A stretch of 64,000 nt of DNA from Glycomyces harbinensis (lineage in GTDB: Bacteria > Actinomycetota > Actinomycetes > Mycobacteriales > Micromonosporaceae): contig NZ_FNAD01000001.1 in the NCBI RefSeq assembly GCF_900101745.1, positions 496,001 to 560,000 on the forward strand, in the 5' to 3' direction. Below, in pieces: positions 488 through 13,985 of the stretch. The notes under the pieces were generated by a model, which did no database searches, had not been told where the DNA came from, and saw only the letters and a list, made by a program, of their open reading frames with translations. Every line of letters begins with the position of its first letter. Position 1 is the stretch's first letter. Made by a program: the position numbers and the translations under genes.

Positions 488-1000
488 CTAGTCGCGGGCG
501 TGTTTGATGTAGATCATGACCGCTTCGCGGGTGGTCTTGACGCCCAGGGACTGTCGGGCCGCGGCGATGCGGCGGTTGGCGGTGCGCAGCGACACGAACT
601 CGGCTTCGGCGGCGGCCGCGATGGTCGAGCCCGCCGCGAGGCGCCCCAAGAGCGCGCGCTGCTCGGCGTCGAGGTCGAGGCCGTCGGCGGCCTCGGCTTT
701 GCCGGGGGTGACGCCGAGGGGTCCGACGCGGCGCAGGTCGGCGGCCAGCGCGAGCGCGAGCGCGCCGGAGGCGACCGCGACGATGCCGGCGCCGCGTGCG
801 GCGGCCAGGACCGCTTGGGAGGCGGTGTGGTCGTCGCCGACGGCGCCGTGGCACACCAGGCGCCGCTCGGCGAGGTCCCAGGCCGGTTCCAGGAGTGCGA
901 AGCCGCGGTGGGCCGCCCATCCGGCGGCCGCGCAGCGGCGCACGATGGCGTCCGCGTCGGCTCCGGCTCCGACCACGTGCAGCGGCACCTGCTCGCCCAT
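488..1000 (-). CDS. Stand-alone LuxR-type DNA-binding protein
   Basis: A 170-residue protein. The C-terminal third (about residues 112-165) reads as a LuxR/GerE four-helix HTH: LDAEQRALLGRLAAGSTIAAAA, then a recognition-helix region with SLRTANRRIAAARQSLGV. The N-terminal 110 residues are Ala-rich and fold-ambiguous, possibly a degenerate receiver-like domain; no phospho-acceptor Asp cluster is clear. The ATG at 1000 shares one base with the stop of the upstream LAL gene (TGATG) and has GAGG just before it; the GTG at 1003 is an alternative. Translational coupling suggests that both regulators act in the same circuit. Confidence 0.75.
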   Translation of the reverse strand: MGEQVPLHVVGAGADADAIVRRCAAAGWAAHRGFALLEPAWDLAERRLVCHGAVGDDHTASQAVLAAARGAGIVAVASGALALALAADLRRVGPLGVTPGKAEAADGLDLDAEQRALLGRLAAGSTIAAAAEAEFVSLRTANRRIAAARQSLGVKTTREAVMIYIKHARD

Positions 1001-3432
1001 CACGCCTCACTGCCTTCGTCGATCGCCGCGTCCAGGAGCACGGCCGCTTCGGTGCGGGTCTTGGCGCCGAGTTTGCGCATGCCCGAGCGGATGTGGGTCT
1101 CCACGGTCTCGGCGGTGATGCCGAGGATCTCGGCGATGCGCCGGGAGGGGTGTCCGGCGGCGACGTGGCGCAGGACTTCGGTTTCGCGGTCGGTCAGGCC
1201 CCCGCCGCCGCGGGCGGAGCGCCGGTCGCGGCGGATGTCGTGTTTGCGCAGGCCGCGGCGGGCCCGTCCGGCCAGGACGATGAGGCCGTGTTCGTCGGCG
1301 ATGCGTTCGGCCGCTTCGAGGGCGGCGACGGCGGCGCGGGGGTCGCCGGAGTGGACGGCCAGGGCGAGGAGGCAGCGGACCTGTTCGCGGGCGGCCAGGC
1401 CGTCCCAGGCGGTCGCGGCCTGCGCGAAGGGGCCGGGTGCGGCCTTGTCCCAGGCGTTGAGGGTCGTGGCGACGGGGGCGGGCCAGGGGGTGTGGTCGGC
1501 GGCGACGGGGTCGGTGCCGGTGTCGTAGGCGATCCACCGGCCGGTGATGTGGGCGAGGCCGCCGACCAGGCCCGGGCGGGCTTGGGGGGCTTCGGGTCCG
1601 GGTTGGCCGTCGAGCCAGGCGGTCTCGTGTTCGAGCCAGGAGACGAGGCCGTCGAGGGCCGCGGGGGCGTCGTGGAGGCGCGCGAGTCGGGCGCGGGCGG
1701 CGCCCAGGGCGCCGGTGTCGGCTTCGGCGAGGGCGATCGCGGCGTCGATGAGCGTGTCGGCGACCGCCGGGAGGGCGTGGTCGGCGAGGGATTGGGCGGC
1801 GGCGATGACGTTGTCGAGGCCGGTGCCGGACAGGACCAGGCACCAGGCGGCGGCGGCCAGGAAGCGGGTCTGCCACGAGTAGGCGCCCGCGGCGCCGGCG
1901 CGGTCGGCGGCTTCGTGGGCGACGGCTTCGGCTTCGACCAGGCGGGCGGCGTCGGCGAGGGCGATGACGCGCGACCACGCGCACCATGATGCGGTCGTCG
2001 CGTCGCCGGCGTCGCGGGCGAGTGCTTCGGCGATCGCGAGCGCGTCGGGGTCGTCGCCGGCGAGGGCGGCGGCGAGCCCGGGGTGGTCGATGTGGGGCCG
2101 GTCGGTGAGGATCGCGGCGGCGAGGGCGTCCCGTTCGTCGCCCCGGGCGCACAGCAGGCGCAGCTGGTCGGTTTCGGGGCCCGGTGGGGCGTCGTCGAGG
2201 GCGGTGCGGGCGCGGGGGGTCTCGCCGATGGCCAGCAGCGCCCAGGCGCGGGCGAGGGCGGCGTCGCCGCCTGTGGGGGCGCGGTCGAGGACGTGCAGGG
2301 CCGCGCGGGTGCGTCCGGCTTCGAGGGCGGCGCGGGCGGCCGCGACGGCGTGGGCGGGGTCGAGTTCGGCCGCCAGGAGCAGCGCTTCGGCCCGGATCTG
2401 GGGGCTGGTGTTCTCGGCGGCGGCCAGCGCGGCGGTCAGGGCGGGGCCGGGGAGGCCGGCGGCGTGGGCGTGGCGGGCCGATTCGACGCCGACGGTCGCT
2501 TCGGCGAGGTGCTCGTGCATGGACCGGCGCGCGTCGGGTTCGAGGATGCCCGCGGCGATCTCGGCCATCCACGGGCTCGCCGGGCGCAGGTGCGCGCCTT
2601 CGGCGACGGCCAGGCCGGCGTCGAGGAGGATCGGTGCGCCTTCGCCGAGGAGGGTGGGGTGGGCGGGGCGTCCGAGCAGGCCCAGGGCGGCCAGGGCGGT
2701 GCGCCCGGCCCGGGGCAGGTCGGCGATCGCGGCGGCCGCCGCGGAGGCGGGGTCGCCGGGGTCGGCGAGGTCGACGTCGTCGGGTTCTTGGTGCGCGGCC
2801 CGTTTGGCGAGCGCGGTGAGCGCGAGCGGGTTCCCGCCGGCGCGGGCGGCGAGGGCCGCGACGCGGGTCGGCGCGAGCGCGGGTGCGGCTTCGGCCACCA
2901 GTTGCACGGCTTCGAGGTCGGTCAGGGGCGGCACGGAGATGACGGTGGCGCCTTCCAGGAGGCGGGCGAGGGCGTCCTCGCCGAGCCGGTTGGGCGTGCG
3001 CAGGGCGGCGGCGACGGGCAGGCGCTGGGCCAGGACGGGCAGGACGGCGAGGGTGGCCGCGTCGCACCATTGGAGGTCGTCGATGACCAGCAGGCCCCCG
3101 CGGGTGCGCGAGTAGACCGCTTCGGCCAGCAGGGGGAGGTCGTCGGCGGGCATGCGCGCCCGCGTGGCCCGCTCCAGGGCGAGCGCGGGGGCGCCCGAGA
3201 GCGTCGCGAGTCCCCCGCCGGCGTGCACGGGGCGCTTGGAGGCGCGTGCGAGGCGCTCCAGCAGGCGCGTGCGCCCCGAACCGGGCGGGCCGGTCACGAC
3301 CACCAGGCCCGGGCCGGCCAGTGCGCCCGCCATGGCGCGCAACGCATCGTCGCGGTCGCCGGGGCCCCCGGGCGGGGGCGTGGCGGCGGGACGGGACGGG
3401 GCCAGTCCGGTGGTGGGCGGCGGGGCGGCCAA
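1000..3432 (-). CDS. LAL-family ATP-binding LuxR transcriptional regulator
   Basis: An 810-residue regulator of the large ATP-binding LuxR (MalT-like) class. A Walker A-like loop (GPPGSGRTRL, about residues 49-58) and a Walker B (LLVIDDLQW, about 114-122) define an N-terminal STAND-type ATPase. A long Ala-rich helical region follows, as in the repeat sensor part of LALs. The C-terminus has a LuxR HTH (LTDRETEVLRHVAAG ... IAEILGITAETVETHI). The start is TTG at 3432, chosen because AAGGAG lies five bases upstream. In family members ATP and an inducer control oligomerisation and promoter binding. Targets are unknown; the divergent GTPase operon at 3607 is the obvious candidate. Confidence 0.88.
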   Translation of the reverse strand: MAAPPPTTGLAPSRPAATPPPGGPGDRDDALRAMAGALAGPGLVVVTGPPGSGRTRLLERLARASKRPVHAGGGLATLSGAPALALERATRARMPADDLPLLAEAVYSRTRGGLLVIDDLQWCDAATLAVLPVLAQRLPVAAALRTPNRLGEDALARLLEGATVISVPPLTDLEAVQLVAEAAPALAPTRVAALAARAGGNPLALTALAKRAAHQEPDDVDLADPGDPASAAAAAIADLPRAGRTALAALGLLGRPAHPTLLGEGAPILLDAGLAVAEGAHLRPASPWMAEIAAGILEPDARRSMHEHLAEATVGVESARHAHAAGLPGPALTAALAAAENTSPQIRAEALLLAAELDPAHAVAAARAALEAGRTRAALHVLDRAPTGGDAALARAWALLAIGETPRARTALDDAPPGPETDQLRLLCARGDERDALAAAILTDRPHIDHPGLAAALAGDDPDALAIAEALARDAGDATTASWCAWSRVIALADAARLVEAEAVAHEAADRAGAAGAYSWQTRFLAAAAWCLVLSGTGLDNVIAAAQSLADHALPAVADTLIDAAIALAEADTGALGAARARLARLHDAPAALDGLVSWLEHETAWLDGQPGPEAPQARPGLVGGLAHITGRWIAYDTGTDPVAADHTPWPAPVATTLNAWDKAAPGPFAQAATAWDGLAAREQVRCLLALAVHSGDPRAAVAALEAAERIADEHGLIVLAGRARRGLRKHDIRRDRRSARGGGGLTDRETEVLRHVAAGHPSRRIAEILGITAETVETHIRSGMRKLGAKTRTEAAVLLDAAIDEGSEA

Positions 3433-3606: not shown

Positions 3607-5097
3607 ATGGTGGCAGGGCAACTCACCACGAGTGTGGCGGGCATGTGCGAGGAACTGGCCGGCAAGGTCAGCGCCGCCTCTCGCCCCGTGGTCGAGGACG
3701 TGGCCTCCCGGCTCGGGCAGCCGCTGCGCGTCGCGGTCGCCGGGCGCCTCAAAGCGGGAAAGTCCACGCTCGTCAACGCGTTGATCGGGCGGCGGGTCGC
3801 GCCGACCGCCGCCGGGGAGTGCACCCGGGTGGTCACCCAGTTCCGGTACGGGCCCGCCGACCGGGTCGACGTGATCGCCCGCAACGGCACCAAGCACGCC
3901 GTGCCCCTCGACGCTTCGGGGATGATCCCCACTTCGTTGCCGATCCCGGCCGATGAGGCCGCGATGATCGACGTGCAGTTGTCCTCGGACCGCCTGCGCG
4001 ATCTGACGGTGGTCGACACGCCCGGCCTCCAGTCGGTCAACACCGACATCTCCGAGGCCGCCCGCGAGATGCTCTTCGCCGCCCCGATCGCCGACGACGT
4101 CGACGACGACTCCCGGGCCGCCGTCGAATCGGCCGAGGCGATCATCTACGTCTTCACCCAGCAGGTCAGGGCCGACGACGTCGAAGCGCTCGAGGCGTTC
4201 TCCAAGGCCTCCCAGCAGCTGTCGTCCTCCCCCATGAACGCGTTGGGCCTGTACAACAAGGCCGACAAGCTCGCTCCCGGGCCCGGGCAGGACCCCTGGC
4301 CGATCGCCGGGCCGATCGCCGGCGACCAGGCCGCGGTCCTGCGCCGCGCGGTGTGCGACGTCGTCCCCGTCGTGGGCCTGCTGGCCGAGACGGCCGAGGC
4401 GGGACTGCTGACGGCCGCCGACTGCGAGGCCCTGCGCACCCTCGCCGGCCTCGACGAGGACAAGCGGGCCCTCATGCTCGCCTCCGCGGGGCTGTTCCTC
4501 AACACCGAGGGGCCCGTCGACCAGCACCAGCGCCAGCGCCTGCTCGAGCGCCTCGACCTGTACGGCATCCACTTCGCGATCGCCCACCTGGGCGCGAACC
4601 CGCACCTGGCGACCGGGGAGCTCGTGCGGCTGCTGTTCGCGGCCTCGGGGTTCCCGCGCCTGCGCACGACGCTGCACCAGATCTTCGGGGTCCGTGCCGA
4701 CGTCATCAAGGCCGGGTGGGCCCTGGGGCGCCTGGACGCCGCCGCGGCCTCGGGCCCGGCCGCCGACCGCGACCTGCTGCGGGGCGCGGTCGAGTCGATC
4801 GTCGCCCGCCCCGAATACCACCGCCTGCCGCTGCTGGAAGCGGCCGCGCAGGTCACCACCGGGCAGGTCGCCCTGCCCGAGGCCATGGAAGCCGAAGTCG
4901 CCCGCCTGGCGCTCACCGACGACGCCGGCGTCGTCCTGGGCCTGCCCGGTGAGGCGCGCCCGCAGCTGCGCCGCGCCGCCATCGAGGCGGCCGCGCGCTG
5001 GCGGGCGTTCGCCAACGGCGGGGCCACCCCGTCCCAGGCGCGGGTGGCGAACGTGGTGCATCGTGGGTTTCATCTGCTGGCGCAGCGGCTCGGATGA
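3607..5097 (+). CDS. Dynamin-like GTPase, first of a pair
   Basis: A 496-residue P-loop GTPase of the bacterial dynamin-like group. G1 is GRLKAGKS at residues 46-53, G2 probably Thr73 (ECTRVVT), G3 DTPG at 137-140 and G4 NKAD at 217-220. The remaining 270 residues are helical, with no obvious membrane segment. Bacterial dynamin-like proteins typically work as adjacent pairs that remodel membranes; actinobacterial examples include IniA/IniC and the Streptomyces DynA/DynB septum proteins. Here the partner at 5708 carries the hydrophobic stretch. The ATG at 3607 has no strong Shine-Dalgarno; a later start at Met13 would still keep G1. It heads a four-gene overlapping operon divergent from the LAL regulator. 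Confidence 0.88.
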   Translation: MVAGQLTTSVAGMCEELAGKVSAASRPVVEDVASRLGQPLRVAVAGRLKAGKSTLVNALIGRRVAPTAAGECTRVVTQFRYGPADRVDVIARNGTKHAVPLDASGMIPTSLPIPADEAAMIDVQLSSDRLRDLTVVDTPGLQSVNTDISEAAREMLFAAPIADDVDDDSRAAVESAEAIIYVFTQQVRADDVEALEAFSKASQQLSSSPMNALGLYNKADKLAPGPGQDPWPIAGPIAGDQAAVLRRAVCDVVPVVGLLAETAEAGLLTAADCEALRTLAGLDEDKRALMLASAGLFLNTEGPVDQHQRQRLLERLDLYGIHFAIAHLGANPHLATGELVRLLFAASGFPRLRTTLHQIFGVRADVIKAGWALGRLDAAAASGPAADRDLLRGAVESIVARPEYHRLPLLEAAAQVTTGQVALPEAMEAEVARLALTDDAGVVLGLPGEARPQLRRAAIEAAARWRAFANGGATPSQARVANVVHRGFHLLAQRLG

Positions 5098-5132: not shown

Positions 5133-5711
5133 GTGACGAATCGACTCGGCGGACCGCTGGTAGGGGCCCTCGCCGGCCTCGCCGCCGCGGGCCTGGGCGC
5201 GGTGTTCCTCACCGTCGACGGGTTCGATGCGCGCACCTTGGCCATCGGGGCCGGATCGGTCCTGGTCACCGCCGTCGTCGCCGCCCTCGCCGGCCGGTCG
5301 ATCACGTCGGCGGCCCCCGCCGCCGCGGTCCCGTTCGCGCCGGCGCCCGGTACGGGCGGGGCCTCGGGTCCCATTCCGGTCGGGCAGCTCGCCGACGGCG
5401 CCCGCTCGGCGCAGAACTCGGCCGACCGGACGGTCCTGGTCGAGGCGTGCATCTGGATGCGGGACCGCGCGACGTCCCCGGCGCTGGCCCAGCACCTCGA
5501 CGGCGCGTTCACGAAGGTCGGTGTGGCCCAGGTCGATGCGACCGGGCAGCGGTTCGATCCGGCCGTGCACGAGGCGGGGTCGGTCATCGCGGCCTCCACG
5601 CCGGCCGAGGACGGCATCATCGCGCGCACCGAGACGCCCGGGTACATCGACCGGGGCCGTCTGCTGCGCCACCCGATCGTGACGGTCTTTCGCGGGCAGG
5701 TGCGGGCATGA
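5133..5711 (+). CDS. Membrane-anchored GrpE-like protein
   Basis: A 192-residue protein. Two hydrophobic segments (about residues 7-29 and 35-55) form an N-terminal hairpin anchor, followed by a Pro/Ala linker. Residues about 100-187 resemble the short helix and beta-wing of the Hsp70 nucleotide exchange factor GrpE: FDPAVHEA, then a turn, GYIDRGRLLRHPIVTV, matching the GrpE pattern FDP..HEA ... GY...GR.(I/L)R.A.V.V. The long dimerising coiled coil of true GrpE is absent. GTG at 5133 is preferred because AAGGAG lies at 5121-5126; ATG at 5094 overlaps the previous stop and would add 13 residues. It sits between two dynamin-like GTPases. Function is inferred: a membrane cochaperone or scaffold. 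Confidence 0.78.
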   Translation: MTNRLGGPLVGALAGLAAAGLGAVFLTVDGFDARTLAIGAGSVLVTAVVAALAGRSITSAAPAAAVPFAPAPGTGGASGPIPVGQLADGARSAQNSADRTVLVEACIWMRDRATSPALAQHLDGAFTKVGVAQVDATGQRFDPAVHEAGSVIAASTPAEDGIIARTETPGYIDRGRLLRHPIVTVFRGQVRA

Positions 5712-7618
5712 CCGACACCGCTACTCCGGCGCAGAGTCAGGCGCCGGCGAAGAAGGCCGCGGCGAAGCCGAACCCGGCGCAGCAGATCCACAAGTTGTGC
5801 GTCAAGGCCGCCAAGGCCGGCAACGCGTCGCTGCGCACCGTTGACGCGCGTGCGGCGGCGGAGGTCGACGAGGTCACGCGCTGGCAGCCGGACAAGCCGG
5901 TGGCCGTGGTCGTGGGCGAGACCAAGCGCGGCAAGTCGTCGCTGGTGAACGCCCTGTTGGGGATGCCGGGGTTGTCGCCGGTGGACGCGCAGGTCGCCAC
6001 GACGGCGTACCTGGAGTTCGCGTGGGCCGACCAGGCGTCGGTGCGCGCCTGGCAGCCCGGTGCGGCCGACCCGATGCTGTTGGGCGTGGGCGACCTGCGC
6101 AACTGGGCGACCCGGTTGGGCACCATGCCCCCGGGGATGGTGCCGCCGCGGCGGATGCTGGTGGGGCACCCTTCGGCGCTGCTCAAGCACATGTCGGTGG
6201 TGGACACGCCCGGTACGGGTGGTCTGGATCCCGACCACGCGCAGATCGCGCTCGAGGCGGTCGCGCGGGCGACGTGCCTGATCATGGTCACCGACGCGTC
6301 GTCGCCGATGGCGAAGACGGAGCTGGACTTCCTCACCGAGGCCTCCAAGCGGGTCAACTTCGTCGTCTTCGCCTTGACGAAGACGGACACGTATCCGGGT
6401 TGGCGCACGGTCATGGAGGAGAACCGCTCGCTCATCGAGGCGCACGCGCCGCGGTTCCGTCATGCGCCGATGTACCCCGTGTCGGCGATGCTCGCCGAGC
6501 ACGCGTTGAACTCCCAGGGGCCCACGCGGGTCGCTCTGGCCCGGGAGTCGGGCATCGGGAAGATGCAGCGGGCCCTGGTCAAGGTCGCCACGGCCGGGAA
6601 GGCGCTGGTCGCGGCGAACGTGGTGCGCGCGGTGCGCACCGAGTTCCAGCGCCTGGCCGTCTCCGCGGCCGAGGACATGAAGGCCTACGACCCCGATCCT
6701 GAGGCCGCCAACCGGTTGAAGGAGGAGAAGAAGCAGGCTTTGGCGTTGCGGCGCACCGAGACGAAGAAGGCGAACCTGGCCTTGCGCGTGGAGACGCAGC
6801 GGGCCAAGATCGAGGTGCAGGGGCGGTTGCGCACGCACCTGGCCGAGCTCGAAGAGGCCCTGTTGGACGAGGTCGAGAAGGCGAACAAGGCCGCGCTCGA
6901 ATCGCTGCCCCAGCGCGTGGACATCGCCTTGCAGGGCATCGCGGCGCGGTTGTCGGGCGAGTTGCATCAGCGGTTCGTGCTGTTGGCCGAGCGCGTGCTG
7001 CGCCAGGTGTTCAACGACGACGAGCTGCGCGGGGCGACGAACTCGATCTCCGCGGGCCTGCGCACGGCCGCCTCGGGGCGGGCGAGGCGCGACGCCTCCT
7101 CGGACGGGGCGCTGCTGATGGCGTCGTCGGCGGGTGTGGCCATGATGGCCGGTCGCGCGGTGACCATGGGTGCGGGCGCGATCGGCCTGGGTGCGCTCGG
7201 GGGGATCGGCGCGGTCGCCCTGTCGGCCTCCGGTATCGGCGTCGGGTTGGCGGCGGCGGCGTTCCTGTTGTACCGGCGCAAGATCCAGGGCAACCGCCAG
7301 GCGGCCAAGCAGTGGATCCAGCGGATCGTCGCCGAGGCGCGGGCGAACCTCAACGAGGAGATCAGCTTCCGGTTCACCGAGGTCGAGTTCGTCTTCAACT
7401 CCACGCTCGACGACGCCTTGGAGCGCCGGGCCGCCGAGTTCGACGCGCGCATCTCCGCGGCCGAGAACGCCCAGAAGGCCGACCAGGCCGCCCGGGCGAA
7501 GAAGCAGGCCGCGCTCAAGCAGCGCCGCGACTCCATGGCCTCCAAGGTCAAACAGCTCGACGAGGTGCTCGCGAAGGCTCGCACGCTCGTCCCAGGCGAG
7601 GAGGTAGTCGATGGATGA
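5708..7618 (+). CDS. Dynamin-like GTPase, second of a pair, with membrane segment
   Basis: A 636-residue GTPase. An Ala/Lys/Pro-rich leader is followed by G1 GETKRGKS at residues 70-77, a G2 candidate in QVATTAY, G3 DTPG at 166-169 and G4 TKTD at 224-227. Charged coiled-coil regions (about 335-395 and 590-630) flank a Gly/Ala-rich hydrophobic stretch at about 467-522 that could be a paddle or transmembrane hairpin, as in bacterial dynamin-like proteins. The ATG at 5708 overlaps the previous stop by four bases; an upstream extension of the frame to 5447 only overlaps the GrpE-like gene. It probably forms a heteromeric membrane-remodelling machine with the GTPase at 3607. Confidence 0.88.
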   Translation: MTDTATPAQSQAPAKKAAAKPNPAQQIHKLCVKAAKAGNASLRTVDARAAAEVDEVTRWQPDKPVAVVVGETKRGKSSLVNALLGMPGLSPVDAQVATTAYLEFAWADQASVRAWQPGAADPMLLGVGDLRNWATRLGTMPPGMVPPRRMLVGHPSALLKHMSVVDTPGTGGLDPDHAQIALEAVARATCLIMVTDASSPMAKTELDFLTEASKRVNFVVFALTKTDTYPGWRTVMEENRSLIEAHAPRFRHAPMYPVSAMLAEHALNSQGPTRVALARESGIGKMQRALVKVATAGKALVAANVVRAVRTEFQRLAVSAAEDMKAYDPDPEAANRLKEEKKQALALRRTETKKANLALRVETQRAKIEVQGRLRTHLAELEEALLDEVEKANKAALESLPQRVDIALQGIAARLSGELHQRFVLLAERVLRQVFNDDELRGATNSISAGLRTAASGRARRDASSDGALLMASSAGVAMMAGRAVTMGAGAIGLGALGGIGAVALSASGIGVGLAAAAFLLYRRKIQGNRQAAKQWIQRIVAEARANLNEEISFRFTEVEFVFNSTLDDALERRAAEFDARISAAENAQKADQAARAKKQAALKQRRDSMASKVKQLDEVLAKARTLVPGEEVVDG

Positions 7619-8105
7619 GTACGATCCGTTCGACCCCGAGTCGAACACCCCTGACTTCGAGGGCGCCGATCTGGACGATGCGGACGCCCCCGGCTTGGAC
7701 GACTTCGACGACGGCGAGGTTCCCGGCGAGGACGACCTCGAAGGGTTCGCCTTCGACGGCGAGGCCGGTCTCGACGACGTGGACGACCTCGACGGCGAGT
7801 TCGCCGAATACGACGACACCGACGTGGAGGACGGCGTGGAGGCCGAGGCGGCCGGGGACGAGGCGCCGTACGCGGCGACCTATGAGGACCTGCTGCTGGA
7901 CGAGGCCGACAACCCGCCGTCGTTCCCGCCCGAGTTGGACCTGGACGTGCCCGAGCCGGTCGACGGCTACCCGTGGGTCGACCTGGACGCCCTCGGGCAG
8001 GTCGAGGCCGAGCCGTGGGTGAACTCGGTCGAGGCCTCCGAGTACGCGATCGCCGACATCGACGACCCGGCCGCCTCCGCGCTCGCGCGGTTCTGGCAGT
8101 CCTGA
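7611..8105 (+). CDS. Extremely acidic hypothetical protein
   Basis: A 164-residue protein with 57 Asp/Glu and, by my count, a single basic residue (Arg near the C-terminus), rich in Phe/Tyr/Pro placed among the acids. The first 90 residues look disordered; the C-terminal half has aromatic-hydrophobic patches (PYAATYEDLLLDE, DGYPWVDLDAL, ALARFWQS) that could be short binding motifs. ATG at 7611 overlaps the GTPase stop by eight bases and follows a GAGGAGG site, so its expression is coupled to the GTPases. I do not recognise a family. A regulator or spacer that docks on the basic surfaces of the GTPases is a guess. Confidence 0.8.
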   Translation: MDEYDPFDPESNTPDFEGADLDDADAPGLDDFDDGEVPGEDDLEGFAFDGEAGLDDVDDLDGEFAEYDDTDVEDGVEAEAAGDEAPYAATYEDLLLDEADNPPSFPPELDLDVPEPVDGYPWVDLDALGQVEAEPWVNSVEASEYAIADIDDPAASALARFWQS

Positions 8106-8619
8106 CCCGCACCCCGCAGGCCGGCCCCGGCACGCCGCCCGCGCGAGTGGACCCGCAGTAGGCGCGTCGCGCCCTCGCCCGGACGGTATGCGCGGGTGCG
8201 GGACCGGATGGTGCCGGATGGTACTTGTCGAGGCAGTTCGCATCGGCAATGGTGACCGTCCCGGTCTTGCACTGTCCGAAGTCGCCTCACCGCGCGCAGT
8301 GCGGCAATGGCGCATCGAATGCGCGGTGGTCGCACGAACCGCCGCGAACGCCGATTACGCCCGTGGCCGTGGAGGATTTGCGCAGGCCGCAGCGCCCGCG
8401 AGTACCGCCCGGATCGCCGCCGCCTCACTCCACAGTGTCACCGCCGCCGTATCGTGTGGTGGCACTCGGGTGACGATGAAGTGAAAAACTCGGACCTGGC
8501 GACACCGAAAGGGGCGAACCGGCGGTAGATTGGCTCCATTACCGTCGAGACCGACGCCCGATTCCCCCTCGCCGGGCACCGGCCCGTCCCCGCACGACCG
8601 ACCGACCGGGAGCCGCGTG
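8106..8619 (+). other. Noncoding gap between the GTPase operon and the J-domain gene
   Basis: About 510 bases without a convincing gene. Short open frames here (for example 8188-8484) have Arg/Ala-biased translations and no ribosome binding site. The last 150 bases are less GC-rich and include GTGAAAAACTCGG and a TAGATT box at 8527-8532, a possible -10 for the J-domain gene with a 5' leader of about 80 bases. No terminator with a clear stem and T-tract is visible directly after the acidic gene. Confidence 0.5.
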
Positions 8620-9885
8620 GTGAACGAACCAGACCACTACCGCGTCCTCGGGGTGAGCCCGCAGGCACCCAGATCCGAGATCCAGGCCGCCTACCGCCGC
8701 CGCCTGCGCGATACCCATCCCGACCGCGGCGGCGACGAAGCCGAGTTCCACCTCGTCCAGCAGTCCTGGGAGACCCTCTCCCACCCCGGGCTGCGCCGCG
8801 AATACGACCTGCTGCGCTTCGGACGCCGCGCCGCCCGCCGCTACGGCAAGGCCGCCGCCAAACCCTCGCACCGCAAAGTCCGCGGCTGGAACGTCGCCCC
8901 CGCCGCCGAACCGAGGGCGCAGTCCCTGTCGACCGAAGGCGCGCTCGTGGCCGTCCCCTGGCACGCCCGCCTGCGCCGCGTCCGCCCCGTCCAGCGCCCC
9001 TCCACATGGGTCGCCGCCGCCGGCAGCAGCGCCGCGTTCGCCCTGTGGGCCGGTGCGGGACTGTGGTTCTGCGCCGCGGCCCTGTCCGCCGACGCCTCCC
9101 TGTTCCTGCGGGCCCTGTCGATCCCCGCCGCCCTCGCGGTGGTCATGATCGTGTTCGTCCAGACCAGCCGGGCCCTGCGCTCGCGCCCCGACCGCTCCCC
9201 CAGCCCCCCGACCGGGCGGCTCGTCCTCGCGTTCCTGTTCGCGGCCGCCTCGGTGTGGCTGGCCGGACCGGGCACGGCCTGGGGCTGGTACCTGGGCGTG
9301 TTCGTCGTCGCCGGCGCCGGCCTGGCCTGGACCGTACGCCGCCTGCGCTGGACCCTGGCCCTGCGCTCCTCCGTGGGCGCGGCACTGCGCCAGTTCAACG
9401 CGTTCGGCCCGGCCGGGACCCGCCCCAGGGCCGACCGGCCCACCGGGAAGCTCCTGCGGGAGGTCCTGACGAACCTGCCCGCCGCGAGACTGTTCGTCGC
9501 CCTCCCCGCGACCGACGGCACCCGCGTGCCGCACGCGATCGTCTGCGGGGACCGGATCGCACTGCTGTGCGCCCCCGTCGGACGCGACAGCGCCGATGTG
9601 GACTCGGTGAACCTGCCCGAAGCGGTCAAGGCCCTCGACGCGGCACTGCCGGACGCGCACGTCCAGGGCTGGGTGCTGTGGCCGACCCTGCCCGAGACGG
9701 CCCGCGCGGGCGAGAGCGCCGCGGTCCACGACGTGGCCGTGGGCCAGGCCGCCGCCGACATCGGCCTGTGGCTCGCCGCGGCCGGCGCGGTCTACGACCT
9801 GCCGGTCCTGCAATCGCTGCGAATGCGCCTGGCCGCGATCCCGGTCCCGCGCACGCAGGACCGCTCACCGGTCGTCAGGGCCTGA
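8620..9885 (+). CDS. J-domain protein with membrane segments
   Basis: A 421-residue protein. Residues 5-60 form a DnaJ J-domain (DHYRVLGVSPQA ... RDTHPDRGGDE), with the Hsp70-activating HPD at 33-35. A basic linker precedes four hydrophobic segments between about residues 130 and 245. The C-terminal 170 residues alternate beta and alpha elements (for example HAIVCGDRIALL) and vaguely recall a NERD-like fold; this is uncertain. GTG at 8620 is chosen over 8617 and 8530 because GGGAG lies seven bases upstream and the protein then starts directly at the J-domain. No Hsp70 gene is in the window. With the GrpE-like protein 3 kb upstream, two membrane-tethered DnaK-cycle partners sit in one neighbourhood. 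Confidence 0.85.
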   Translation: MNEPDHYRVLGVSPQAPRSEIQAAYRRRLRDTHPDRGGDEAEFHLVQQSWETLSHPGLRREYDLLRFGRRAARRYGKAAAKPSHRKVRGWNVAPAAEPRAQSLSTEGALVAVPWHARLRRVRPVQRPSTWVAAAGSSAAFALWAGAGLWFCAAALSADASLFLRALSIPAALAVVMIVFVQTSRALRSRPDRSPSPPTGRLVLAFLFAAASVWLAGPGTAWGWYLGVFVVAGAGLAWTVRRLRWTLALRSSVGAALRQFNAFGPAGTRPRADRPTGKLLREVLTNLPAARLFVALPATDGTRVPHAIVCGDRIALLCAPVGRDSADVDSVNLPEAVKALDAALPDAHVQGWVLWPTLPETARAGESAAVHDVAVGQAAADIGLWLAAAGAVYDLPVLQSLRMRLAAIPVPRTQDRSPVVRA

Positions 9886-9948: not shown

Positions 9949-9954
9949 TACAGT
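9949..9954 (+). promoter_or_regulatory. -10 box for the siderophore operon (leaderless)
   Basis: TACAGT lies seven bases before the ATG at 9962, the spacing at which transcription starts on or next to the start codon. No Shine-Dalgarno precedes that ATG. Confidence 0.5.
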
Positions 9955-9961
9955 GCAGGCC

Positions 9962-11353
9962 ATGGACGCCACCGCCCGCGCCGACGCGATCGTCGCCGAC
10001 CGACTGAGGGCCGCCGCCGACCGCGAACCGCTGCCCGGCAAGGCCGAAGGCGACACCGCGGTCGACCTGGCGCGGTCCCTCGCCGCCGGTTCGGTGCACG
10101 CGGAGCGGTTCGCCGGCGAGATCGCCTCGGCCGTGCGCGGCACCGCCCTCGCGCTGGAGGCGGCCCGGCCCCACCCGCACGACCTGTGGGCCGCCGCAGA
10201 GGCGGCCCACCTGGACCCGAGCGTGTGGTTCGAACAGGCCGTGCTGCTCGGACACCCCACCCATCCGCTGGCGCGCTCGCGCGGGGAGCTGACCGACGAT
10301 GAGATCCGCGCGTTCGCACCCGAGCACCGGGCCCGGTTCGACCTGGGCCGCTACCAGGTCCCGGGCCTGACCGTCTGGGAGGGATGGCGCGTCGCCGAGG
10401 ACCGGGAGCAGCTGCTCCCGGTGCGGTTGCCGGTCCACCCGTGGCAGGCCCGGCGCCGCGGCCTCACCGCTCCCGAATCGACCTGGACCGGTGCGGCGCC
10501 GCTGATGAGCCTGCGCACCGTCTCAGTCGGCGACCGACACGTCAAGACCGCCGTCGACCTCCAGTTGACCTCGGCCGTGCGGCACGTCTCCGCGGCCGCC
10601 GTCAGCAACGGCTGGCAGGTCTGGCACCGACTCGAACGCCCCGCGGCCGACCTGGGCATCACCCTCGTACCCGAGCGGGGCGCCATCAGCCGCCCCCTCG
10701 GCCCCGACTACACCTGGAGCCCCGCAGGCCCCGACACGGGCCTGGCCGCCATCGTCCGCCCCGCCCCGCACACCCTCGGACACCCGCGGGCCGTGCCGCT
10801 CGCGGCGCTGGCCGAACCCGACCCCGCGACCGGCCGCCCGATCGGCGCCGCCCTCGCCGGCAACGACCTCGAACAGTGGTGGACCGCACTCGTCGCAGTG
10901 GCACTGGCACCGGTGCGCCTGTTCGCGACCACCGGCGTCGCCCTCGAAGCGCACGGGCAGAACACCCTCGCCTCGTTCACCGGGAACCGGCCCGCGAGCC
11001 TGGTGTACCGGGACTTCGGCGGCATCCGCGTCCCGACCGAGGACTGGCCCGCCCTCACCGGGGACCTGCCCGAGCCCGACCCGGCCAAGCGGCTGGCGAA
11101 ACTCCTGGCCGCACTGTTCCCCACCACGCTCACCGCACTGGTCCAAGCGCTCGCCGAGTGGACGGGGACCGACCCCGGCACGTGGTGGTCGACCGTCGCG
11201 GCCGCGGTGCGCGACCTCGCACTGGACCAGTGGATCGCCGCGGCCGTCCTGCGAGACCCCTGGCCCGTCAAGGCCACCACCGCGATGCGCCTGGCCGACC
11301 ATGCGACCGACGACATCTGGGCGAGCGTCGACAACCCGCTGGCGGCCGCGTGA
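9962..11353 (+). CDS. IucA/IucC-family siderophore synthetase, first copy
   Basis: A 463-residue NRPS-independent siderophore (NIS) synthetase; such enzymes adenylate a carboxylate such as citrate and condense it with an amine or alcohol. Visible family motifs are GHPTHP at residues 97-102 followed by RSR, HPWQ at 159-162, and LEAHGQNTL in the C-terminal half. It is shorter than the usual 580-620 residues, mostly at the N-terminus. ATG at 9962 is chosen over GTG 9953 because of the leaderless -10 spacing. It overlaps the second synthetase by four bases (GTGA), so the two are co-translated. Confidence 0.9.
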   Translation: MDATARADAIVADRLRAAADREPLPGKAEGDTAVDLARSLAAGSVHAERFAGEIASAVRGTALALEAARPHPHDLWAAAEAAHLDPSVWFEQAVLLGHPTHPLARSRGELTDDEIRAFAPEHRARFDLGRYQVPGLTVWEGWRVAEDREQLLPVRLPVHPWQARRRGLTAPESTWTGAAPLMSLRTVSVGDRHVKTAVDLQLTSAVRHVSAAAVSNGWQVWHRLERPAADLGITLVPERGAISRPLGPDYTWSPAGPDTGLAAIVRPAPHTLGHPRAVPLAALAEPDPATGRPIGAALAGNDLEQWWTALVAVALAPVRLFATTGVALEAHGQNTLASFTGNRPASLVYRDFGGIRVPTEDWPALTGDLPEPDPAKRLAKLLAALFPTTLTALVQALAEWTGTDPGTWWSTVAAAVRDLALDQWIAAAVLRDPWPVKATTAMRLADHATDDIWASVDNPLAAA

Positions 11354-12864
11354 AACCCGGGCCGAGCCTGTCGGCGCAGGTCACGGCCGCCGCATGGCGC
11401 GAAGACCTCAACGGCTTCCGCACCGGGCCCGCCCCCGCCGGTCAGGGCGCGTTCAACCAGCTCGACCCCGACCCGGGCACCGACGAAGACCCCGTCAAAA
11501 CCCTCGAGGCGATCCTCGGCGCACCCGTCCCCGAGCACCTCGCCGCCGAACTCGCCTCCGCCCGCACAGGACTCGCCTACGCCCGCGCCCGCGCCGAGAC
11601 CCGCAATCGCCACATCGCCGCCTACGCGGCCCGCACCGGTACCGGGAGCCTCGCCGAACTCGTCGCCGCGTGCACGCGCGACGCGGACACGACCGCACGA
11701 TTGCTGGAAACCCTCGCCACCGACGGCCACCAGCTCCACCCGTGCGCGCGCACCCGCCTCGGCTGGAACCCGCGCGACCTCGAACGCTACGACCTGGAGA
11801 CGACCCGCCCCATCCGCATCCGGCTCGTCGCCGACCGATCCGGCGTCCTCGCCCGCTCCGGCACCGACTTCCGCGACCACCCCATGCTCAAGGACCTCGA
11901 CCTGCCCGACCCCGTCGTACCCGTCCACCCCTGGCAACTCGAACACCGCGTCCTGACCGCCCACCGCGACCTGTTCACCACCGGCCGCCTGGCCGTACTG
12001 GACCAGACCGTCCCGGCCTGGCCCACCGCCGCGATCCGCACCCTCGCCGGCCACCGCGCCCCCGGCTTCCTCAAACTCGCCCTGGGCATCCACATCACCT
12101 CCACCAGACGCGACATCTCCCCCGCCACCGCGATGCTCGCCCCCTACCTCAGCGAACACCTCGCCGACCTGGACGAGACGCACCGGTTCGTCGCCGACAC
12201 CGCCGGCACCTGGCTGCCGCACTCGCGCGACCTCACCGCCATCGCCCGCGCCCCACTCGCCGCCGCCGTCCCCGCGGGGACCGTATGCGTGCCCTCCACC
12301 GCGCTGGCGGCCCCCTCGCCGGTCACCGGCCGCAGCCTGGCGGCCGAGTACGCCGACTGGTCGGGCGACCCCGACGCGTGGCTGCGCTCCTACACGAACC
12401 TGTTCGTCCCCCCGGTCCTGGCCAAGGCCGCCATGGGCATCGGACTCGAAGCGCACCTGCAGAACAGCCTCGTCGCCATGCGCGGGCACGAGCCGGTCGC
12501 CGCCCTCACCCGCGACCTGGGCGGGGCGCGACTGCACGTGCCGAGTGTCCCGTTCGCAATCGATTTGCCTGAGGGCAGTCCCGTGAACGCCGCCTCGATG
12601 GACCAGGTCAGGTCCAAAGTGGCGTACACGCTGTTCCACAACCACCTGGCGGCCCTCGCCGCCGTCCTCGAACGCGACTGCGGGATCGACGCCGCCGCCT
12701 ACTGGGCCGACCTCGCCGACCGGATAGCAGGCCTCGACCTGCCCGCGGCCGACCGCGACCACTACCTGGCGCCACAGCAGCCGACCAAAGCGCTCCTGAC
12801 CATGCGCCTGCACCCCGGCGACGAGATCGAGACCCGCGTCGACAACCCCATGGCCCGCCCGTGA
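11350..12864 (+). CDS. IucA/IucC-family siderophore synthetase, second copy
   Basis: A 504-residue NIS synthetase. The nucleotide-binding region reads LHPCARTRLG (about residues 129-138), a diverged form of the usual HPxxKxRxG. HPWQ is at 193-196, a Thr/Ser-Thr-Arg-Arg segment corresponds to the usual ATP-binding loop, and LEAHLQNSL is near residue 365. Start is GTG 11350, inside the previous stop. Two NIS enzymes plus a decarboxylase is the core of staphyloferrin- or vibrioferrin-like pathways, in which two successive condensations build a polycarboxylate siderophore; the actual product cannot be read from sequence. Confidence 0.9.
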   Translation: MKPGPSLSAQVTAAAWREDLNGFRTGPAPAGQGAFNQLDPDPGTDEDPVKTLEAILGAPVPEHLAAELASARTGLAYARARAETRNRHIAAYAARTGTGSLAELVAACTRDADTTARLLETLATDGHQLHPCARTRLGWNPRDLERYDLETTRPIRIRLVADRSGVLARSGTDFRDHPMLKDLDLPDPVVPVHPWQLEHRVLTAHRDLFTTGRLAVLDQTVPAWPTAAIRTLAGHRAPGFLKLALGIHITSTRRDISPATAMLAPYLSEHLADLDETHRFVADTAGTWLPHSRDLTAIARAPLAAAVPAGTVCVPSTALAAPSPVTGRSLAAEYADWSGDPDAWLRSYTNLFVPPVLAKAAMGIGLEAHLQNSLVAMRGHEPVAALTRDLGGARLHVPSVPFAIDLPEGSPVNAASMDQVRSKVAYTLFHNHLAALAAVLERDCGIDAAAYWADLADRIAGLDLPAADRDHYLAPQQPTKALLTMRLHPGDEIETRVDNPMARP

Positions 12865-13985
12865 ACCCACTGCCCGCCAACGTCACCGCAGCCGTCGCCG
12901 CCCTGCCCTCGCCCTCCAGCGCCTGGATCTACGACCCCGCGGTCCTCGCCGGCCGCCTAGGACGCCTGCGGGAGGCCCTGGGAGGCCACACGATCCTGTA
13001 CGCGATGAAAGCCTGCGCCAACCCCGCCATCGTCGCCACCGCCGCAGCACTGGCCGACGGCATCGAATGCGCCTCCGGCGGCGAACTGCGCGCCGCAACG
13101 GCCGCCGCCGCCACCCGCCTGGCCTTCTCCGGCCCCGCCAAGACCCCCGCCGACCTCACCGCCGCCACCCGCACCACAACCCCCCTGTGGATGCACGCCG
13201 AAAGCATGCGCGAACTCGACGGCCTCGCCGCAGCCGGATACACCGGCCCGGTCGCCCTGCGCGTCAACCGCGGACGGGCCCTGCCCGGCACCCACCAGAT
13301 GACCGGAGCGCCCACCCCCTTCGGCATCGACGAAGCCGACGTCCCCGCCGCCGTCGACCGCGCCCTCGCCCACGGCCTGGACCTCACCGGATTCCACCTC
13401 CACGCCGTCTCCAACTGCCTCGACGCCCACGCCTACACCGCCCACGTCCACGACGCCCTCGCATGGTCGCGCACCGCCGCGACCCGGTTCGACCTGCGCT
13501 ACGTCAACGTCGGCGGCGGCCTCGGCGCCGACCCCCGCGGCGACCAGATCGACCTCGCCGCCCTCGCCCGAGGACTCAAAGGCATCGACACCGCAGGCGC
13601 CGAACTCGTCTTCGAACCCGGCCGCTACCTCGCCGCCCCCGCAGGCTGGTACACCGCCGAAGTCCTCGACCTCAAAACCGTCCAAGGCCAGGCGTTCGCA
13701 CTGGTACGCGGCGGCACCCACCACTTCCGCCTCCCCGCCGCCTGGGGCTACTCCCACCCCTTCCACCTCGTGCCGGGCCCACGACACGAACCCCCCTGGA
13801 CCAATGTGGACCTCCGCGTGTGCGGCGAACTCTGCACCCCCAGAGACATCCTCAACACCGGCCAACCCACCCCACACATCGCCGTCGGCGACCGCCTCGT
13901 CTTCGCCAACGCCGGCGCCTACGGCTGGGAGATCTCCCACGACCGATTCCTCCACCACCCCGCCCCCCAAACCCTCATCATCTGA
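12861..13985 (+). CDS. PLP-dependent (fold III) decarboxylase of the siderophore operon
   Basis: A 374-residue LysA/SbnH-type enzyme. The PLP lysine is Lys50 in YAMKAC; a Gly-rich phosphate loop is NVGGGLG, with FEPGRYL following; the dimer-interface Cys-Asp motif reads CGELCTPRD. Start is GTG 12861, overlapping the previous stop by four bases. In staphyloferrin B and vibrioferrin pathways the equivalent enzymes (SbnH, PvsE) decarboxylate an amino acid or a citryl intermediate to supply the amine. Its place as third gene of the NIS operon supports that role over lysine biosynthesis. No siderophore exporter or uptake gene is adjacent. Confidence 0.87.
   Translation: MNPLPANVTAAVAALPSPSSAWIYDPAVLAGRLGRLREALGGHTILYAMKACANPAIVATAAALADGIECASGGELRAATAAAATRLAFSGPAKTPADLTAATRTTTPLWMHAESMRELDGLAAAGYTGPVALRVNRGRALPGTHQMTGAPTPFGIDEADVPAAVDRALAHGLDLTGFHLHAVSNCLDAHAYTAHVHDALAWSRTAATRFDLRYVNVGGGLGADPRGDQIDLAALARGLKGIDTAGAELVFEPGRYLAAPAGWYTAEVLDLKTVQGQAFALVRGGTHHFRLPAAWGYSHPFHLVPGPRHEPPWTNVDLRVCGELCTPRDILNTGQPTPHIAVGDRLVFANAGAYGWEISHDRFLHHPAPQTLII

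Follow-up and report, generated by a model that had tools for sequence, protein, structure and literature searches.

In the Glycomyces window analysed here (the whole stretch of DNA, 64,000 nucleotides), the C-terminal half of the protein encoded at positions 5133-5711 is a genuine GrpE domain. The protein, which we term mini-GrpE, is a member of an actinobacterial family distinct from housekeeping GrpE, and its membership in a dynamin system is well supported. Canonical GrpE is soluble and resets Hsp70 chaperones. The source is a soil actinobacterium of the genus Glycomyces. Bacterial dynamins such as IniA remodel membranes under cell-wall drug stress, and we know of no established account of what starts, stops or recycles them. 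The features are collected in Table 1.

Table 1. Features of the mini-GrpE locus, with positions in the window and the evidence for each.
Feature	Position	Strand	Evidence
AAA/STAND-like ATPase with C-terminal LuxR HTH, divergent	1000..3432	-	Pfam GerE 5.5e-16, AAA_16 1.7e-7
DLP1, dynamin-like GTPase, IniC position	3607..5097	+	Pfam Dynamin_N 9.6e-17; phmmer
Membrane-anchored mini-GrpE, 192 aa, GTG start	5133..5711	+	Pfam PF01025, AF2, Foldseek, conserved start/Shine-Dalgarno, hydropathy
Predicted two-helix membrane hairpin, short acidic outer loop VDGFDA	5133..5288	+	hydropathy, AF2 helices, conservation
Mini-GrpE core, two helices and beta domain, residues 83-187	5379..5693	+	pLDDT mostly >90; Foldseek matches GrpE only
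DLP2, IniA-like dynamin-like GTPase	5708..7618	+	PDB 6j72; ATG overlaps mini-GrpE stop
Acidic 164-aa protein	7611..8105	+	overlaps DLP2 end; syntenic in Glycomyces and some relatives
J-domain protein, central membrane region	8602..9885	+	Pfam DnaJ 2.7e-14

The GrpE domain and its membrane anchor

A sequence-only reading of this DNA had taken the C-terminal half of the protein for a GrpE domain, and profile and structure searches bear this out. Mini-GrpE matches PF01025 at 38.2 bits, above the 25.8-bit cut-off (Pfam, E=1.5e-9), the match spanning residues 119-185 and profile positions 98-163 of 165. Human GrpEL1 is its best match among PDB sequences (phmmer, E=8e-4), and the PDB chains matched by a profile of the mini-GrpE family are all GrpE (best E=1.2e-7). 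The beta domain at residues 131-187 is modelled with a pLDDT of approximately 91-95 (AF2), and a Foldseek search with the model gave GrpE at every rank from 1 to 12 (E 2.9e-6 to 1.3e-3, probability 1.00). The first match outside GrpE, to an unrelated fold, had E=0.72; hence neither a better match to an unrelated fold nor a lack of GrpE likeness, the two outcomes named beforehand as telling against the assignment, was found. Chance likeness is ruled out by the Pfam match, the family profile against the PDB and Foldseek. The nearest named relatives, from Glycomyces species, are 71-84% identical, and FDPxxHEA, a GY/GF motif and the last beta strands are strongly conserved throughout the family.

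The protein is laid out as a transmembrane hairpin (7-25 and 33-52), a flexible linker (approximately 53-82), helices at 83-128 and the beta domain at 131-187. The Pfam match begins only at profile position 98 of 165 and so the N-terminal coiled-coil stalk, the long dimerisation helix, is absent. What is left of the helical part amounts to around 46 residues in two helices (83-112 and 116-128 in the AF2 model), for which the family profile gives an alignment to the M. tuberculosis GrpE helical bundle. The earlier statement that the dimerisation helix is missing therefore holds for the stalk but not for the bundle. The idea that membrane helices take its place did not survive, because the soluble relatives lack the stalk as well. 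These soluble forms, from Pseudonocardiaceae and families f45 and f46, have neither membrane segment nor stalk, and the shortest stalk-less soluble relative (L178) is only 100 residues long and still scores above the Pfam cut-off; they rule out the membrane helices as a stand-in for the dimerisation helix. Since relatives without the hairpin are also without the stalk, the hairpin is a separate module added at the N-terminus of a mini-GrpE core, and not a replacement for the stalk. The sequence-only reading was right about the combination of GrpE beta domain and two-helix membrane anchor, which is unusual for a nucleotide exchange factor; exchange itself is a predicted activity.

The GTG start at 5133 has the Shine-Dalgarno sequence GAAGGAGAGC, and both are kept in seven other Glycomyces. 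An alternative upstream ATG at 5094 is less likely to be the start because it is at the GTG that the ribosome site is conserved. The stop codon at 5709-5711 overlaps the ATG of the DLP2 gene (ATGA). The solubility typical of GrpE is not found in mini-GrpE, whose two hydrophobic N-terminal segments have Kyte-Doolittle peaks of 2.06 and 2.15, in comparison to 1.03 for the canonical GrpE of the same genome; the corresponding AF2 helices, 7-25 and 33-52, have low pLDDT. All Glycomyces have the membrane hairpin, as do 22 loci in the wider GTDB family, many of these with a cysteine pair in a long inter-helix loop. Read by eye, the first segment in family f17 looks like a lipoprotein signal (LALAGC in L123, for instance), and a single membrane helix comes after it. 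We predict an N-in hairpin with the GrpE domain in the cytosol, and both the long cysteine-pair loops and the f17 lipoprotein signal are consistent with this orientation, in which the loop faces outward.

The canonical GrpE gene adjoins dnaK on another contig of the same genome. A tree of the shared domain places ten canonical actinobacterial GrpEs together in a single supported clade (99/98), with mini-GrpE outside it. This short-domain tree is partly resolved, in that canonical GrpE is isolated and the new family is not recovered as one clade, with interference from the L131 and L132 rows near canonical GrpE and from several long branches. Family-profile scores separate the two groups, at 68-163 bits for full-length mini-GrpE members and at most about 40 bits for canonical GrpEs. 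Further GrpE-derived domains, belonging neither to canonical GrpE nor to the mini-GrpE family and lying on long branches, occur at L101, L103, L104 and L105.

Dynamin operon and linked Hsp70 genes

The two flanking GTPases resemble the mycobacterial dynamin pair. DLP1 matches the gene next to the IniA-like gene in Mycobacteriaceae (L181-L185) with E from 5e-41 to 6e-45 (phmmer), and DLP2 matches M. smegmatis IniA (PDB 6j72) with E=1.9e-21. Both dynamin genes lie less than 10 kb from the mini-GrpE gene in 56 of the 60 loci. Unusual as the protein is, mini-GrpE does not stand alone; its gene is a conserved member of a dynamin operon.

The J-domain protein has an intact HPD at residue 39 and hydrophobic segments at 145-225, and within the GTDB family only one part has this membrane J protein (14 of 101 genomes). 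Homologues of the divergent ATPase-LuxR gene, which probably encodes a regulator, are found at 29 of the 60 loci, and the gene is divergent where mapped. The acidic protein after DLP2 has no Pfam match; in Pseudonocardiaceae the place of this highly acidic protein is held by a protein with DxDGDG repeats, which matches DUF6802 below threshold. Directly downstream of the operon (9953-13985, + strand) lies a probable NIS siderophore cluster, with a PLP-dependent decarboxylase gene and two genes for IucA/IucC siderophore synthetases that are FhuF-like at their C-termini.

Hsp70-like genes accompany mini-GrpE well beyond Glycomyces. One lies less than 10 kb away at 23 of 58 family loci, and at 12 of 13 further GrpE-bearing loci chosen via DLP2, where the density of Hsp70 genes gives a chance expectation of approximately 4%. 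The gene order in f45 and f46 is Hsp70-DLP1-GrpE-DLP2, all on a single strand. The HSP70 match of the linked proteins scanned with Pfam is confined to the ATPase domain, with no substrate-binding domain, and most consist of the ATPase domain and a transmembrane segment. In Micromonosporaceae, f45, f47 and f52 this segment lies near the extreme C-terminus behind a Pro/Gln-rich linker (tail-anchored); in f46 it is followed by a further domain, and the f17 and f18 proteins are mostly without a clear one. The Glycomyces orthologue of the Micromonosporaceae tail-anchored type (G000:C20:801709-802773) is found outside the operon, approximately 240 kb downstream of the window, and is a 473-residue protein with a C-terminal transmembrane segment; its scores of 558-615 bits exceed those of the next paralogue, which reach 378 at most.

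The two genes also co-occur. Among 101 genomes of the GTDB family, 30 have both mini-GrpE and the tail-anchored Hsp70, one has mini-GrpE only, none has the Hsp70 only and 70 have neither; the sole GrpE-only genome is a fragmented assembly with a truncated Hsp70 match. A Fisher value for these counts is no proper probability, since the thresholds (at least 105 bits for mini-GrpE and at least 655 bits for Hsp70) were chosen after the scores were known and both genes track phylogeny. Physical linkage of the two genes over several families is the stronger evidence.

Around twelve Hsp70-like genes besides DnaK are present in genome G000 (L004-L014). Most encode an ATPase domain, one transmembrane segment and several hundred further residues at the C-terminus, which in L004 give weak WD40 matches, and none of those aligned has the subdomain-IIB hairpin segment of DnaK. 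By eye in the alignment, the tail-anchored proteins L005, L135 and L139 are acidic at the position of DnaK K55 and basic at that of E267, so the salt bridge that closes the cleft (PMC8215388) may persist with the charges swapped.

A putative Hsp70 switch on the dynamin pair

Because the dynamin operons of relatives include an Hsp70-like membrane protein, the likely partner of mini-GrpE is that membrane Hsp70 and not necessarily the host DnaK, and the presence of a membrane-bound Hsp70 in related operons points to control of bacterial dynamins by an Hsp70 switch. We propose, with the chances evenly divided, that mini-GrpE is a dedicated membrane co-chaperone of the Hsp70 that lacks a substrate-binding domain, and that together they act as an ATP-driven switch on the dynamin pair. 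The GrpE domain, facing the cytosol, would dock on the membrane-bound Hsp70 ATPase domain and reset its nucleotide state, and the switch would then govern assembly or disassembly of the IniC-like and IniA-like dynamins at the cytoplasmic membrane. The divergent IniR-like regulator would control the operon in envelope stress, in which the system probably has a role. Nucleotide exchange is the most likely activity of mini-GrpE; that the tail-anchored Hsp70 is what it acts on appears about equally likely to be right or wrong. Against the proposal stand the observations that the Hsp70 gene lies outside the operon in Glycomyces, that no Hsp70-like gene was found less than 10 kb from mini-GrpE at most Pseudonocardiaceae loci, and that the Pseudonocardiaceae mini-GrpE proteins have no transmembrane segment. 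Furthermore, mini-GrpE is dispensable for the dynamin pair, since Mycobacteriaceae keep the pair without it.

Exchange is put in question by the Hsp70 side of the interface. In all the aligned Hsp70-like proteins around eight residues are missing from the subdomain-IIB hairpin seen in DnaK, the DnaK of Glycomyces itself included. The four classes of exchange factor covered in one study all contact Hsp70 subdomain IIB (PMC2940730), and in HscA loss of the 'GrpE signature' accompanies a lack of interaction with GrpE (PMC8215388). Exchange is therefore not to be assumed, because it is near this signature that the aligned Hsp70s lack the hairpin segment (PMC8215388); either GrpE and Hsp70 have adapted to each other or the GrpE domain serves as an adaptor for docking.

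The second of these, in which a reused GrpE fold would bind the Hsp70-like protein, or else a dynamin, and keep it at the membrane with no catalysis of exchange, is rather unlikely, though the most probable of the alternatives. It would be consistent with the loss of the stalk, with a core as short as 100 residues and with the variation (R, K, H, Q) at the family position that by eye lines up with E. coli GrpE R183, which we take to be an Hsp70-contact position. The missing IIB segment in the partner Hsp70s points the same way (PMC8215388), but FDPxxHEA, GY/GF and the last beta strands are strongly conserved, and it is the beta domain of true GrpE that opens the Hsp70 cleft (PMC8215388).

Rather less probable is that mini-GrpE serves the housekeeping DnaK as a membrane dock or exchange factor, recruiting it to the dynamins or to membrane clients, and that the co-inherited Hsp70s are unrelated to it. 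DnaK does retain the IIB hairpin, the J-domain protein of the operon could work with it, and in Mycobacteriaceae the dynamin pair lies within approximately 10 kb of canonical DnaK at two loci (L183 and L184); however, DnaK already has a GrpE gene adjoining its own, and mini-GrpE is tied to Hsp70s without a substrate-binding domain in many families despite reshuffled gene order. An ordinary decayed GrpE paralogue without a specific role is highly improbable, for although the protein is shorter than canonical GrpE it is intact in Glycomyces and many other genera, with fixed synteny and invariant motifs.

Returning to the proposed Hsp70 switch, we consider more tentatively an extended form, possible though below an even chance, in which a membrane-confined Hsp70 machine (the tail-anchored Hsp70 without a substrate-binding domain, the hairpin GrpE and, in some lineages, the membrane J protein) loads, times or dismantles the dynamin pair, and in which the operon is ancestral and mycobacterial iniAC a reduced version of it. 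Were the proposal correct, a conserved operon pairing dynamins with an Hsp70 ATPase domain and GrpE would provide a concrete, testable dynamin regulator. Hsp70 and GrpE would form a membrane switch needing no substrate-binding domain, and GrpE would act on an Hsp70 without the loop thought necessary for its action.

Comparison with known systems

In comparison to the GrpE family (PF01025; E. coli 1dkg, GrpEL1 9bls, M. tuberculosis 8gb3), mini-GrpE has the same beta domain and preceding helices and shares the FDPxxHEA and GY..R motifs, but it has two N-terminal membrane helices and no coiled-coil stalk, and its gene lies between two dynamin genes and not next to dnaK.

In mycobacteria IniA has membrane-cutting activity, and cell-wall stress triggers an iniBAC response (PMC6715688, PMC5760070). 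Inducers of iniBAC are cell-wall inhibitors and trehalose. Both iniBAC and the Glycomyces operon have paired dynamin-like GTPases, DLP2 being clearly IniA-like, and the divergent ATPase-LuxR gene has the same general architecture as the iniBAC regulator IniR, although its product gave no phmmer match among the ORFs of the Mycobacteriaceae loci L181-L185. The dynamin gene order is reversed in Mycobacteriaceae, no IniB was recognised in the Glycomyces operon, where the acidic protein is without a Pfam match, and mini-GrpE is absent from the Mycobacteriaceae dynamin-pair loci examined (L181-L185). Distant Hsp70-like membrane genes lie nearby at four of these five loci.

Two dynamin-like GTPase genes side by side are also a feature of LeoABC and other paired bacterial dynamins (PMC4159319, PMC6104087), to which the similarity of the Glycomyces dynamins is low. 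PADLOC gave weak LeoA/LeoBC matches to the dynamins only (31-59 bits) and no match to mini-GrpE, the J protein or Hsp70; on these matches an anti-phage system seems unlikely. GrpE is unmentioned in the LeoABC and paired-dynamin papers (PMC4159319, PMC6104087), and a literature search of open-access papers found none linking GrpE to a bacterial dynamin.

The GAP1-N2 GTPase systems of actinobacteria, which are placed near the membrane, are linked to HSP70, GrpE and DnaJ-domain proteins (eLife 2020, PMC7159879), and the survey includes HSP70 without a peptide-binding domain (PMC7159879). The theme of GTPase, HSP70, GrpE and DnaJ is thus shared, whereas the GAP1-N2 core consists of GAP1 and zinc-ribbon GTPases and the mini-GrpE loci carry IniA/IniC-type dynamins. 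The word 'dynamin' is absent from the text of the survey (PMC7159879), and GAP1 and FNIII-repeat components are absent from the Pfam matches of the Glycomyces operon proteins. Two loci of family f20 (L131 and L132), with a DnaK-like gene near a GrpE variant, are the only ones that resemble the GAP1-N2 HSP70/GrpE theme; in L131 the variant stands between a J-TPR protein and a PD-(D/E)XK nuclease protein.

In its extended form, the proposed membrane Hsp70 switch would be comparable in its logic to the eukaryotic Hsc70/auxilin cycle at coated vesicles.
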